From: Gelidibacter sediminis
Lineage (GTDB): Bacteria; Bacteroidota; Bacteroidia; Flavobacteriales; Flavobacteriaceae
Reading direction: 5' to 3'
NCBI RefSeq assembly: GCF_004364975.1
Contig: NZ_SOBW01000008.1
Location: 1,389,200 to 1,453,199 of the forward strand
DNA length: 64,000 nucleotides
Below are positions 42,492 through 47,562 of this stretch, in pieces. How positions within the stretch are numbered: position 1 is the first letter of the stretch; the number at the start of each line of letters is the position of its first letter. The notes beneath the pieces are model-generated. The model was not told where the DNA came from and made no database searches. It saw only the letters and a program-made list of their open reading frames with translations. A program made the position numbers and the translations under genes.

Positions 42492-45400
42492 TTATGGTAT
42501 ATACGGTGTGTTTAATGTCGTTATCTTAGACATCACTTTTTTGTCTTTAATAATTGATAACTGTATGCGGTAATCTTCATAATTTTCAGGTATTGTTAAC
42601 AGTAGAGTTCCTTTATCACCTACATCTTTAATTGTTTGATAATTGCCATAAAGATCGCATTTGACCAGTGCCCATTCAATTTCATAATAATCCTCTGACT
42701 CAACACGCTCCCAGCCCTTTAGCGGATCATAAAGCATGGCATAAAAATACGCTTGTTGCCCTGGTTTAAGTAAATCAATTGTCTTTAATATTCCAACCCC
42801 ATTTGTCATATTGTAATCTTCCTTACTATCCAAAATGGTTTTTAAATTCTGATAATCAGGTTTTAGCCTACCTTTCCGATCTATGAGTCCATCAAATGAT
42901 AGTTTGTCAATTTGATGCTGATCTTGCCAATTTTTCACGAAAAATCCTTTTGATAATGAGGCTTTTTCCAATTCCCCTAACATTTCAACAGAAATATCGG
43001 TAAAGATATGGGGCCCTTCTAATGATTGAACTGCTTTTAATATGATATCTGTATTGAGACCCTCGTTTACGATTATTCCTAAACCATCTACATTTACTAG
43101 GGCTCTTAAAAAATCATTAGCCTCAGAACTTTCTAAGTTGTTTAATTTATAGTCAATTATAATTGGTCGGGACGGATCTATTTTTTTTATTTCAGAGGTC
43201 AGTTGTTGCAACCATAACACATACGCACGTCTATGATACGACCTAACAGGTTCGTCAAAAGAGGAATTGTATTTTGTCATTAAATTATTCTGTAGGCGCC
43301 AAGCTTTTATATGTTCTTCGCTTTTATGCTTCTCTACCAAATGGACTATCTTATCTTTGTATAGTATTGATGCACTTAAATCTTCATAGAAATTGATGTG
43401 ATCGGGGATCCAAAATCCAAATGATAGGTTTAGCCCAAACTCTTTAGTTATGTTAACCACGTTATAATCGTAGGTGTCATTTGAAGTATAGTTTATTGTA
43501 TTCAATCCCAAATCTTTAATCATTCTAAAATGAGATTCAAGATTCTTCCGGGTTAATACGTGGTAATCTCTATTCCATCCCTGGCTGTTTTTTAGATTTA
43601 CGCCCCGTGTATTTTCGAGTTTTTTAAATTGATTTGTAAGTCTTAATGGGGCGGTATCGATTTTAGGTGTATTTTTAAACAAATACGGCGGAATATTTTC
43701 TGATTTAAAGCTGAGATCAATATTATTGATATCTGCAATGGTCCAATTCAGATAAGAATCTCCTTCAGTACCATCGGGCATATTATTATCAACGTTAGAG
43801 TTAAAATAAACAATGGCCCTAATTTCATTGTAGTTAGTATCTATTTGCAACATGGCGTTCTCCAACCACTGTTTCTGAAAATCAGGATCAAAATAGGTTC
43901 CAAATTCTGATAACATAATGGGATAAGTTCCCAGTTTTTCAAATTCGTTGTGATAGGGCTCATAAAGCGATTCAAACGAATTATATAGATCTGGTTGATC
44001 ATATGTGGCATAATTTAACAAATTTACACTTAGCCAATCTACATAACGATGACCCGGAAAATAATGCATTACATTTTCAGGTTTCCACGGGTTATAGATC
44101 CATACCACATTATCTGCACCTTGTTCTTCAAAGATATTCCAGATGTGAATCCAAGATTTTTTAAATTTATCTGCAGCATCGTCACGATGGTCATACCATG
44201 GATAAAACGGATTATCAAATTCATGTGCAAATCTCAGAAATACCGGTTTTTGCAGGTTTTTCAGACGTACTGCAAAATCTGCTATAAATTCATCAAAATA
44301 CCCACTGTATATAGAGTCAACTACATGGCCTTGCAAACTTTTACCGCTAGTAAATGAATTGATCCAAGGTTCCCAAGTAATCATTGGAAATGCCTTTTCC
44401 TCATAGACCTGAAGTAATTCTTGCTCTGGAAAGGTATTTGCAAGCGATTTATCCCATGCCAAATAAAAGGAAATAATACTTACCTCTTGCCCGATAGATT
44501 GTGAGAACTCTGACACTAATGAAAAGTCGCTAAGCCCATTATCAATCTTTGGAGCAAACACCCCAACATATGTTGTAGTTTGATCCAGTTCCGGCTCGTA
44601 GGCCATACCCTCAAGTTTAGTTTGTTCTTGCTTATAATTAAAATACCCAGCTGAAATGAGAATAAAACCGGTGATAACTAACGCTGATTTTTGCCAAATA
44701 TTAAAAATAATTTTCTCAAATTTCGATTCATTATTAAAATTGGCATCTAATTTCTTTCTATCGGGAATGGAAGTACGGTTGAATTGATAAGCGAAGTGTA
44801 AAGTGTAAAACATTATCATGGCATTCCATAATGCAAACCCAGACATAAATATAGAAAATGGAGTAAGATCTCTATATAAACCATAAATTATTGCCAATAT
44901 ACTGATGAGACCTACTATAATATTTGGTAGTACTATTAACACATCAGTCTTTTGATCATCTTCTTTAACCGTAGGAAGATATGGCACCTTTTTTCTGATA
45001 ATCGTGTAAAACATTCCCATGAGGTAAATACTCCAGGTAATTTGCATTAATAGACCACCCAAAAGGTGCATTCCACGTTCCCCTTTGTTTATTACCCATT
45101 TTTGCACATAAAATCGAATTCCTAATATAGACACCAACACTGGCAACAATATTAATCCATAATTGATAACATTTCCCTTCCATGGGGTTGTAGAAGTAAA
45201 TAGAGCTATAATTGGTATTAAAATGCTGAACAGAAAAATAAAACCCGTTAAGTAATGTAAGGGTAGTATACCATAATGCAATTTCTGACGCCATGACAAT
45301 TTATTAATCAATTTAGGGAAAGTGGAAACCAATAATTCCAAAGTACCTCGCGACCATTTTAATTGTTGTTTAAAATATGAAGTTAATGTAGCGGGCGCCA

Positions 45401-46250
45401 AGCCTTCTGATAATGCTTTTGGCACATATATAGATTTCCATCCTTTGGCATGCAATTTCATTGCGGTATGCATATCCTCTGATAAACCGGCCGCATGGCC
45501 ACCAATAGAATCGAGTGCTGATCTTCTGAAAATACAATTCGCCCCAATGGCATTAACGGTGCCATAGGAATTCATACACATCATTACTGGTCCGTAAAAA
45601 TGAAATGTCTGCTCTGCAGCCGCTCGGGCTACCAATGATTCGTTAAGATTGTAATACGATTGAACGGTTTGAACAAAACCAATTTCGGGATCATTAAAAT
45701 ATGGAATAATCTCCTTTAAAAAGTTGTTGTGTGGAATATGGTCTGGATCAAGAATCAGGCAAATCTCGCCTTTGGCTTGTCGTAATGCGTTATTAATATT
45801 CCCCGCCTTTGCATCCTTACGATTATCCCGTGTAACGTGAATAATTTGATGTAGACGACAAAATTCAATCAATTCAATATCATTTGCTTCATCACATAAA
45901 TAGGTCGTGTGAGGATAATCCATTTGCTGTATTGCCAACAAGGTATCCTTGAGCATATGTTTAGGTTCTCCTGGAAAATACGTTGTAAATACATCTACAG
46001 TGAGATGGTTATGAGAAGTAGGTTTATGCGGTACTGATAAATTCCAATAATGATACCATATGTAGATAAGCCTAAAGGTGTCAAAACATATCAGCATCAT
46101 CAGCATCCAATACAACACCTGATTATCTATCAGTTCAAATTCAAAAAACCAATAAAAAAAATTGACAAGACTAGCCAATCCAAACACAATAAGAATCCTA
46201 ATTTTAAATTTCTCAAGCCTTGTAGGTGCCTTTAACATACTATTATTCAT
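42492..46250 (-). CDS. Membrane GT2 polysaccharide synthase fused to a GH26-like domain and a degenerate glycoside-hydrolase barrel
   Basis: This is a 1252-residue fusion. Helices at about 17-36 and 43-64 precede a cytoplasmic family 2 synthase domain (about 85-310) with DPD (D168, D170), SED (257-259) and QQLKW (295-299). More helices lie at about 331-353, 362-380, 436-458, 465-488 and 522-538. The segment 394-416 may be an interface helix, since the following VPYLPTVKED resembles a gating loop. Residues about 545-840 look like a GH26 beta-mannanase/lichenase barrel, with acid/base E677 (RFAHEFDN) and nucleophile E782 (MLSEFGTY). Residues about 880-1145 are a second barrel in which the expected GNE is QNN (988), so it is probably inactive. 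A beta domain ends the protein. It overlaps the partner hydrolase by 8 bases. The polymer is unknown; mannan or mixed-linkage glucan are my guesses. Confidence 0.85.
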   Translation of the reverse strand: MNNSMLKAPTRLEKFKIRILIVFGLASLVNFFYWFFEFELIDNQVLYWMLMMLICFDTFRLIYIWYHYWNLSVPHKPTSHNHLTVDVFTTYFPGEPKHMLKDTLLAIQQMDYPHTTYLCDEANDIELIEFCRLHQIIHVTRDNRKDAKAGNINNALRQAKGEICLILDPDHIPHNNFLKEIIPYFNDPEIGFVQTVQSYYNLNESLVARAAAEQTFHFYGPVMMCMNSYGTVNAIGANCIFRRSALDSIGGHAAGLSEDMHTAMKLHAKGWKSIYVPKALSEGLAPATLTSYFKQQLKWSRGTLELLVSTFPKLINKLSWRQKLHYGILPLHYLTGFIFLFSILIPIIALFTSTTPWKGNVINYGLILLPVLVSILGIRFYVQKWVINKGERGMHLLGGLLMQITWSIYLMGMFYTIIRKKVPYLPTVKEDDQKTDVLIVLPNIIVGLISILAIIYGLYRDLTPFSIFMSGFALWNAMIMFYTLHFAYQFNRTSIPDRKKLDANFNNESKFEKIIFNIWQKSALVITGFILISAGYFNYKQEQTKLEGMAYEPELDQTTTYVGVFAPKIDNGLSDFSLVSEFSQSIGQEVSIISFYLAWDKSLANTFPEQELLQVYEEKAFPMITWEPWINSFTSGKSLQGHVVDSIYSGYFDEFIADFAVRLKNLQKPVFLRFAHEFDNPFYPWYDHRDDAADKFKKSWIHIWNIFEEQGADNVVWIYNPWKPENVMHYFPGHRYVDWLSVNLLNYATYDQPDLYNSFESLYEPYHNEFEKLGTYPIMLSEFGTYFDPDFQKQWLENAMLQIDTNYNEIRAIVYFNSNVDNNMPDGTEGDSYLNWTIADINNIDLSFKSENIPPYLFKNTPKIDTAPLRLTNQFKKLENTRGVNLKNSQGWNRDYHVLTRKNLESHFRMIKDLGLNTINYTSNDTYDYNVVNITKEFGLNLSFGFWIPDHINFYEDLSASILYKDKIVHLVEKHKSEEHIKAWRLQNNLMTKYNSSFDEPVRSYHRRAYVLWLQQLTSEIKKIDPSRPIIIDYKLNNLESSEANDFLRALVNVDGLGIIVNEGLNTDIILKAVQSLEGPHIFTDISVEMLGELEKASLSKGFFVKNWQDQHQIDKLSFDGLIDRKGRLKPDYQNLKTILDSKEDYNMTNGVGILKTIDLLKPGQQAYFYAMLYDPLKGWERVESEDYYEIEWALVKCDLYGNYQTIKDVGDKGTLLLTIPENYEDYRIQLSIIKDKKVMSKITTLNTPYIP

Positions 46251-47562
46251 GATTTAATACGTAAAATGGCATATTAGCTGTCGCAAAATTACCTTTCAAA
46301 TCATGTACAGTTACGAAAACTCTATAAGGACCTTCCTTATTGGGGGATTTGAACTTCAAACTATTTGAAAAAGTTGAGTTGTTAGCAACTATTCGTAAAG
46401 AATCTATTTCAGAGTTCCATTGTTTTCTACCCCAAGCTTCCCTAAAAATTTTATAATGAAAACTTAAGGTGCTGTCAATAGCTTTTTGCATAGTTATTTC
46501 AGCATTGATGACACTACCTGTAGAAAACACTTGATGATTTAATTCCAAATTATTTAAAGACATACGTTTAATTTCGGGTAATATCTTCTGAACTTCTTTT
46601 CCCGTCCATAGAGACGTTAATTCATAATACACGTCTGATTTTCTACCATACTGATCAAAAATATTGAACCAAGTTGGTGTACCTTCTTGTTTGTACCCCC
46701 AATAAAATGCGAGGCTACCAAGACAATTTTGATCCGCTTCAATATAGGATGTGTAAACTTCATTATATATACCACTTTTTAAGGTACTGCTAGGCTCCAA
46801 AATTGATTTCCAAATGTTAATTGGTGCTTCCCATGGACCGTGATTGCCCCATTCCATTATAAAATATGGCTTTGGATTTGTGATTAATTTAATATTATTC
46901 ATTACTGATTCCACACGAGTAATACTTCCAAAGGCATTAAATCCAATCAAGTCTAGTTTGGGCGAACTCAAATGGATTCCCAATGTTTGTGCTCTTGATG
47001 TTCCACTAACACTGGTACTTACGGGGTGATTAGGATCAATATTATGTATGAGATCTACAAGATCATTAAATACTTTAATGAAATTGTTATTCTTGATGGT
47101 TAATGGAAAAATAAGTTCATTACCTAAATTCCATGCCAGAATTGAAGGATGGTCTTTGTATTGACTTACTAAATTTTTTACTTTAAGTTTTAAATTGCGA
47201 ACCGTTACCATATCAGAATAATAAGTTTTGGCGTGGCCACTAGTGGGCAATGGAATATCTACAATCACTGCAATATTATATTTTTGTGCTTCATCCAAGA
47301 GTGTTTTTAAATTAAGAGTGTCATAAACACGTAACGTATTCCCTCCTGCTTCAGCCATCTCTTTTAGATATCCCGTACCACTAGCTCCTTTAATGTAAAA
47401 CGGCTTACCATTTCTATATAATTTAAATTTATTGTTAACCTTTTCAATATAAACTGTACGTGTTTTGTCCAGAACCCTCCCCCGATCTCTATGTAAATAA
47501 ACATAAGCAGCTAGAAGAATTAAGATTGTAGTGAAAAAAAATATCAAAATCGCTTTCCTCAT
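46243..47562 (-). CDS. Membrane-anchored GH2/GH5-like glycoside hydrolase, partner of the synthase fusion
   Basis: This is a 439-residue protein with an uncleaved N-terminal anchor (about 3-21) and a periplasmic TIM barrel (about 35-325) of the GH2 C-terminal or GH5 kind. The acid/base is E149 in AWNLGNEL, and the nucleophile is E237 in YFIMEWGNHG. A C-terminal beta-sandwich (about 335-439) follows. Its barrel aligns by eye with the third module of the adjacent fusion, where the catalytic residues are replaced. It is the first gene of the minus-strand pair and overlaps the fusion by 8 bases. I infer that it trims or releases the polymer made by the synthase. The sugar specificity cannot be read from sequence. 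Confidence 0.82.
   Translation of the reverse strand: MRKAILIFFFTTILILLAAYVYLHRDRGRVLDKTRTVYIEKVNNKFKLYRNGKPFYIKGASGTGYLKEMAEAGGNTLRVYDTLNLKTLLDEAQKYNIAVIVDIPLPTSGHAKTYYSDMVTVRNLKLKVKNLVSQYKDHPSILAWNLGNELIFPLTIKNNNFIKVFNDLVDLIHNIDPNHPVSTSVSGTSRAQTLGIHLSSPKLDLIGFNAFGSITRVESVMNNIKLITNPKPYFIMEWGNHGPWEAPINIWKSILEPSSTLKSGIYNEVYTSYIEADQNCLGSLAFYWGYKQEGTPTWFNIFDQYGRKSDVYYELTSLWTGKEVQKILPEIKRMSLNNLELNHQVFSTGSVINAEITMQKAIDSTLSFHYKIFREAWGRKQWNSEIDSLRIVANNSTFSNSLKFKSPNKEGPYRVFVTVHDLKGNFATANMPFYVLNHE

Follow-up and report, generated by a model that had tools for sequence, protein, structure and literature searches.

Fusion of a BcsA-like synthase with GH26 and degenerate GH158-like barrels, encoded next to a GH158 gene in Gelidibacter sediminis and other Bacteroidota

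A stretch of 64,000 nucleotides from Gelidibacter sediminis (NCBI RefSeq assembly GCF_004364975.1, contig NZ_SOBW01000008.1, positions 1,389,200 to 1,453,199 of the forward strand; hereafter "the window") harbors a gene pair, which encodes a fusion of a glycosyltransferase family 2 (GT2) synthase with two hydrolase-type barrels, and a separate glycoside hydrolase of family GH158. According to the listing of open reading frames (ORFs), the fusion protein is encoded by one minus-strand gene of 1252 codons that fills positions 42492-46250 and shares 8 bases with the GH158 gene upstream of it. A Pfam scan of the fusion protein reports GT2 families and GH26, and no family past residue 808. The features of the pair are the following, in window coordinates:

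46243..47562, minus strand: upstream GH158-family glucanase gene, 439 aa, with an N-terminal hydrophobic anchor (Protein Data Bank (PDB) 9oro, E 3.7e-54; 6pal, E 5.4e-50)
42492..46250, minus strand: GT2 - GH26 - pseudo-GH158 fusion protein, 1252 aa (ORF; Pfam GT2 and GH26; PDB matches to cellulose synthase and endoglucanase H)
44787..46250, minus strand: BcsA-like GT2 core with transmembrane helices (TM) 1-6, residues 1-488
44943..44999, minus strand: gating loop, residues 418-436, containing YLPTVK (aligned to FAVTAKDE of BcsA; Y424, T427 and K429 in 81/81 sequences)
44610..44723, minus strand: TM7, an extra helix, residues 510-547, the predicted exit of the chain from the cytoplasm (structure model)
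43716..44585, minus strand: GH26 domain, residues 556-845 (PF02156, 34 bits; profile match to endoglucanase H)
44220..44222, minus strand: E677, predicted GH26 acid/base (lines up with HE in endoglucanase H; kept in 81/81)
43905..43907, minus strand: E782, predicted GH26 nucleophile (lines up with the Glu of AEF in endoglucanase H; kept in 81/81)
42495..43715, minus strand: degenerate GH158-like barrel and Ig-like domain, residues 846-1252

The GT2 part resembles the bacterial cellulose synthase BcsA in sequence and in modeled fold: residues 16-411 match bacterial cellulose synthases in the PDB (E 7.7e-39 to 1.1e-38), and the structure model of the GT2 core shows the BcsA fold, with BcsA as the closest among solved structures. 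Here and below, structure-alignment and Foldseek matches refer to the best 50 rows, and the AlphaFold models cover two parts of the fusion. Residues D120, D168/D170, E258/D259 and Q295/Q296/W299 align with the D, DxD, ED and Q(Q/R)xxW motifs of BcsA. Among 81 sequences (the window and 80 related loci described below), E258/D259, Q295/Q296 and W299 are present in all, D168/D170 in 80 (the remaining one has a gap), while D120 is invariant in a set of 49. An interface helix is followed by a gating loop of the BcsA type (FxVTxK), aligned as YLPTVK. TM5 and TM6 align with the last two helices of BcsA, up to BcsA chain position 575, just ahead of the PilZ domain; one added helix therefore flips the membrane side of whatever follows. 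The candidate for this helix is TM7, which lies beyond the stretch that the profile aligns to the last TM helix of BcsA, has a hydrophobic core at positions 523-533 (averaged over the 81 sequences) and is preceded by a loop, residues 488-516, with a mean of 5.6 Lys/Arg versus 1.6 Asp/Glu. With an odd number of helices (seven), the hydrolase part is predicted to be extracytoplasmic, i.e., topology prediction places both barrels outside the inner membrane.

The domain behind TM7 belongs to GH26, with a PF02156 score of 34 bits above the curated cut-off of 20.2. At the sequence level, GH26 structures that the PDB lists as endoglucanase H match residues 577-823 (E ~1.5e-19), and a profile built from 17 relatives finds endoglucanase H with E 6.6e-41 (143.9 bits), followed by the next other GH26 at E 8.1e-13 and the best mannanase-named chain at E 6.6e-10 (42.1 bits), a preference of about 100 bits. 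The endoglucanase H entries are presumably CtLic26A, the lichenase of Clostridium thermocellum, and judged by its profile the GH26 domain is far nearer to lichenase than to mannanases. A literature reference names CtLic26A together with its activity. The putative catalytic pair, E677 and E782, is kept in 49/49 and in 81/81 sequences of two sets, yet for E677 this conservation is partly built in, as the 80 loci were retrieved with the patterns FAHEFDN or W[IV][WY]NPWK; FAHEFDN is absent from 34 of the 80 loci, where E677 is kept all the same, and E782 is part of neither pattern. A first-pass annotation of the fusion gene, made from the sequence alone, had proposed a GT2 synthase with membrane helices, an interface helix with gating loop, an odd helix count that puts the hydrolase outside the inner membrane, and a GH26 barrel with E677/E782 as catalytic pair. 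The structure models of the two parts, the alignments to BcsA, and the Pfam and PDB matches bear out these four proposals, the membrane side as a prediction.

The third domain has a GH158-like fold and has probably lost the catalytic machinery of that family. At the acid/base position, 989, the 81 sequences have D in 42, T in 12, N in 10, A in 4, P in 3, L in 2, S in 2 and a gap in 6, such that none of the 75 sequences that are ungapped at this place has the acid/base Glu. Position 1085, the counterpart of the nucleophile, is occupied by D in 19, E in 17, S in 12, G in 10, R in 7, K in 6, A in 3, Y, Q and N in 2 each, and a gap in 1; the window protein has N989 and D1085. A second barrel that acts as an ordinary GH158 enzyme was rejected, as a Glu never occurs at the acid/base position.

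The complete GH158 pair is found in the partner gene, whose product matches the GH158 structures GH158(Pro) (9oro) and BuGH158 (6pal) over nearly full length and consists of a barrel and an Ig-like domain. BuGH158 is a β-1,3-glucanase from a glucan utilization locus, and family GH158 includes endo-β-1,3-glucanases. E149 and E237 of the partner line up with the catalytic residues of BuGH158, E137/E220, and together with N148 they are invariant in 41/41 sequences (an alignment, A4, of 40 sequences plus the second copy from the window's own genome). The catalytic pair is also present in 14/14 neighbors from a sample of the phylum, of which the second own-genome copy (locus L002) and probably one further record also belong to the 41. 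In the window, the N-terminal hydrophobic segment of the GH158 protein contains no Cys, while a crude lipobox pattern occurs in 24 of 77 GH158 relatives. The first-pass annotation had noticed a second barrel in the fusion protein, but missed both its degenerate GH158-like identity and the overlapping GH158 gene.

The pair recurs in other genomes. In species genomes, a scan turned up 116 relatives, and 80 of them were retained; the groups represented include Flavobacteriia, Sphingobacteriia, Chitinophagia, Cytophagia, Prolixibacteraceae, Neolewinella and Balneolia (classes read from organism names). GT2, GH26 and the third domain share one frame in 80/80 loci, two of which are cut by contig ends. 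In 79 loci the gene immediately upstream, in the same orientation, is a GH158 gene, and the record of the 80th ends before that place; the next commonest neighbor family is found in 16 loci. The gap between GH158 and fusion gene ranges from -155 to +36 with an overlap in 64/79 loci, of exactly 4 bases in 28, whereby the overlaps are approximate, as ORF starts were set mechanically to whichever ATG/GTG/TTG comes first behind a stop. A protein search found 381 related proteins, of which 120 were listed and 48 were aligned with the query (alignment A1); from the 81 sequences, alignments A3, A5 and A7 used 51, 49 and 17. A chance fusion or an assembly error was rejected on the basis of the 80 loci, some with two per genome, and the 381 proteins. 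Sampling of the phylum with the GT2 part alone (E <= 1e-100) gave 17 loci in 15/392 genomes and 12/179 genera, own genome included, and the hydrolase part was found in 11/392 genomes; within the genus, the count is 4/9. The trait is hence recurrent but patchy over the phylum. The two sets overlap: L120, L122, L117 and L123 of the phylum sample are likely L013, L009, L069 and L012 of the 80 loci. In a plasmid collection, the 55 listed of 852 matches carry cellulose synthase, NodC or glycosyltransferase names or no name, with at most 35.2% identity. The first-pass annotation had called the fusion unusual, which holds in comparison with textbook synthases but not for a family of this size, and GT2 fusions with another hydrolase family, GH17, are already described.

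The own genome holds two such operons. In the second (L002:1489-5250), a GH158 gene accompanies a GT2-GH26-pseudoGH158 gene whose reading frame is broken by a TGA where TM4 ends; decay of this copy, a split gene or an error in sequencing could each explain it. An uninterrupted relative with a frame of 1253 codons is present in the same genus (G398). At another locus (L028:7009-8339), the GH158 gene is split over two frames; the neighboring fusion gene is otherwise of full length.

Four architectures can be told apart among the 17 loci found with GT2, window counted. The first (A), GT2-GH26-pseudoGH158, comprises nine loci, and the GH26 Glu pair is complete in every one; GH158 lies upstream in eight, and the ninth is cut by a contig end. 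Its oddities are the TGA in the second own-genome copy, a TAA inside the match in genome G080, and altered surroundings of the GH26 Glu at one locus (L118). In the second (B, two loci), GT2 is fused to pseudoGH158 without GH26. GH158 is again upstream, and GH26 is encoded downstream by a gene of its own, a tandem form with both Glu in its second half. The third (C, five loci, L111-L115) is a GT2-GH26 protein of ~820-870 aa without the third domain, next to an opposite-strand GH158 gene with both Glu. The fourth (D, one locus) has a GT2 gene without fused barrels; the GH26 gene behind it has both Glu, and no GH158 lies within the 14 kb fetched. Overall, 12/17 loci have a GH26 with both Glu, either fused or in an adjacent gene, and 15/17 have an adjacent GH158 with both Glu. 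Of all the findings, this reshuffling argues most strongly for joint work of synthase and hydrolases.

The resulting hypothesis, which we consider fairly probable, is that the gene pair forms an inner-membrane machine for the synthesis of a β-1,3-containing glucan, which is cut or rejoined as it emerges. The cytoplasmic GT2 domain would polymerize glucose from UDP-glucose and push the chain through TM1-6, as suggested by homology to BcsA. TM7 would bring both fused barrels into the periplasm, to the exit of the channel, where the GH26 domain, with its conserved E677/E782 and a lichenase as nearest solved relative, might cleave or transglycosylate the nascent chain. The degenerate GH158-like domain could bind or steer the chain, and the membrane-anchored GH158 protein would make a second cut, at β-1,3 linkages. 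That the glucan contains β-1,3 linkages, perhaps as a mixed-linkage polymer, we infer from the two hydrolase families and not from the GT2 domain; the proximity of GH26 to lichenase, rather than to mannanases, points to a β-1,3-containing substrate that would be cut or transglycosylated at the exit. Self-processing of the polymer by the fusion protein, already suggested by the first-pass annotation, remains something we infer from conserved residues and predicted topology.

Besides the retrieval bias at E677, several observations weigh against this hypothesis. In the five loci of architecture C (5/17), the fused GH26 has lost one Glu (L111) or both and would thus be a pseudo-hydrolase, so that the fused barrel can presumably work without cutting. 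Cutting by the fused domain would then be dispensable in one branch and not universal in the family, and for this, too, the reshuffled loci are the best evidence. In addition, the protein search with GT2 alone yields relatives of ~600-700 aa without Pfam GH26, several of them from Pontibacter. Most of the linkage positions of PMC6821405 are unlike both BcsA and the curdlan synthase CrdS. In an alignment read by eye, Q197 alone resembles CrdS, and the counterparts of BcsA Leu309, Asn412, Glu477 and Glu480 match neither enzyme. As for location, AlphaFold models give no membrane side, and in some relatives the GH158 protein looks like a lipoprotein and could sit at the outer membrane. Finally, 29 of the 81 sequences combine Asp at position 989 with Asp or Glu at 1085, and the third domain might have weak activity in some of these relatives.

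The genes around the pair and in the rest of the genome bear on the fate of the product. Searches of the own genome found no BcsB (PF03170) and no MdoG/OpgG (PF04349), with positive E. coli controls for both, and no BcsC homologue. The 31 other families that occur in at least 5 of the 80 loci, Pfam-scanned with one representative each, are mostly housekeeping (five have no Pfam family), and no BcsC-type exporter is among these representatives. SusD and TonB-receptor families, which are import-type, occur near the pair in 8, 7 and 6 of the 80 loci. The lack of BcsB, BcsC and MdoG in the genome, and of a BcsC-type exporter among these neighbors, leaves room for a periplasmic product. A tentative extension, for which we have little confidence, is that the pair is a two-gene Bacteroidota counterpart of NdvB or OpgGH and makes short or cyclic periplasmic β-1,3-containing glucans, with a lichenase carried by the synthase and a dead β-1,3-glucanase domain as chain guide beside a live copy; the repeated fusion, splitting and inactivation would then mark the fused barrels as a general "exit vestibule."

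Two further families were observed around the operon:

L036:12046-13752, L039:12067-13773, L078:12058-13788, L109:3469-5148 and others: members of a ~570-aa tandem GH26 family
L005:3010-5511, L008:863-3364, L010:339-2840, L015:2578-5088, L023:14228-16738, L025:12293-14779, L026:186-2693: ~833-aa proteins, sulfatase superfamily in the one scanned

The ~570-aa family, which is unannotated, is found in 14/80 loci and has two GH26-like barrels, of which the second has the catalytic pair and the first does not; three members scanned have no Pfam match at E 0.001, while the profile of the family finds endoglucanase H (CtLic26A; E 7e-10). The ~833-aa proteins occur in 7/80 loci, each of which also has a tandem GH26 gene, and the one scanned is weakly similar to LtaS and phosphoglycerol transferase. 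They are possibly glucan-decorating enzymes: if the product is a short or cyclic periplasmic glucan, this gene of the sulfatase/LtaS/MdoB superfamily would decorate it.

Alternatively, the GT2 protein could synthesize a secreted exopolysaccharide, i.e., a cellulose-like or mixed-linkage biofilm polymer, with GH26 and GH158 trimming stray chains in the manner of BcsZ. The closeness of the GT2 core to BcsA among solved structures and the SusD and TonB-receptor genes, as outer-membrane genes, would fit, and accessory glucanases are usual in cellulose operons. We regard this as unlikely, as the genome lacks homologues of BcsB and BcsC, the recurrent neighbors include no BcsC-type exporter, and the hydrolases are fused or overlapping and not loosely linked. 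A cellulose synthase proper was rejected: the GT2 part misses the NCBIfam CelA equivalog cut-off (173 versus 699 bits), no PilZ domain is found in the fusion protein in a Pfam scan to E 1, and BcsB and BcsC are absent from the genome. The lost residues raise another explanation, according to which the fused barrels are mainly non-catalytic chain guides or docking modules and the separate GH158 is the real enzyme. It draws on the third domain without acid/base Glu (75/75), on the fused GH26 of architecture C, and on the GH158 pair, intact in all 15 loci that have the gene; it is rendered improbable by the architecture of the window itself, which keeps E677 and E782 in 81/81 sequences, and by the loci without a fused GH26, where an adjoining GH26 gene has both Glu in 3/3. 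GT2 also includes mannan synthases. Very improbable, and rejected, is a β-mannan or glucomannan cut by GH26 as a mannanase, since the GH26 profile favors endoglucanase H and the constant partner is from a family with β-1,3-glucanase activity, even though two large mannanase branches are among the characterized GH26 (PMC6556568).

Returning to a β-1,3-containing glucan that is processed at the inner membrane, the systems most worth comparing differ in which parts they share. The GT2 fold, the D/DxD/ED/QxxxW motifs, the gating loop and the TM arrangement are common to BcsA; the fusion protein differs from it in the missing PilZ domain, the score far below the CelA cut-off, the absence of BcsB and BcsC from the genome, and the fused hydrolases. 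CtLic26A is among the solved structures nearest to the GH26 domain, and BuGH158 among those nearest to the partner protein. CtLic26A, however, is a catabolic enzyme and BuGH158 comes from a utilization locus, while their counterparts here lie in or beside a synthase. The mixed-linkage glucan synthases BgsA and RiGT2 are likewise BcsA-related GT2 proteins linked to a lichenase-sensitive β-1,3/1,4-glucan; BgsA lacks PilZ, and a c-di-GMP-binding C-terminus is characteristic of this type. No fused hydrolase is described in the available part of that report (PMC10374906), and the comparison is by description. OpgGH of E. coli, which makes linear periplasmic glucans, pairs a GT2 synthase gene with a hydrolase-family gene (PMC10514313), but the linkage there is β-1,2 and the OpgG family is the one absent from the G. 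sediminis genome.

Among known systems, GT2-GH17 fusions such as NdvB and the pseudomonad "orphans" come closest. The GT2-GH17 protein of rhizobial cyclic glucan synthesis is reportedly NdvB of Bradyrhizobium. Fusions of this kind are described in PMC10237404 and PMC10514313: in the former, the BcsA-like "orphans" of pseudomonads (NdvB) have GH17 before GT2 and are proposed to make cyclic β-1,3-glucans, and in the latter a GT2-GH17 protein takes part in cyclic glucan synthesis. Shared with the fusion described here, for which this layout is a prediction, is a single inner-membrane protein whose GT2 domain faces the cytoplasm and whose barrel-type hydrolase domain faces the periplasm, as is a proposed sequence of making and then cutting or cyclizing β-1,3-glucan. 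In the open literature, as far as accessible and judged by listings, titles and the opening of abstracts, we found neither a description of a GT2-GH26 fusion nor a synthase for cyclic or osmoregulated periplasmic glucans of Bacteroidetes. The fusion protein contains no GH17 (Pfam scan to E 1), and its hydrolase part is C-terminal: GH26 and a degenerate GH158-like barrel stand behind GT2, whereas GH17 stands ahead of it in NdvB. The differences from GT2-GH17 are thus the other hydrolase families, the reversed domain order, the fused degenerate barrel, the coupled GH158 gene, and the other phylum. If our interpretation is right, the joining of a synthase with its own cutter arose with hydrolase families besides GH17 and in another phylum, and Bacteroidota, with carriers such as Gelidibacter, Chitinophaga and Pedobacter, would gain a periplasmic or surface β-glucan. 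Moreover, the series of fused, split and inactivated forms would provide a probe of the role of a hydrolase at the channel exit, a question that applies equally to BcsZ and OpgG.

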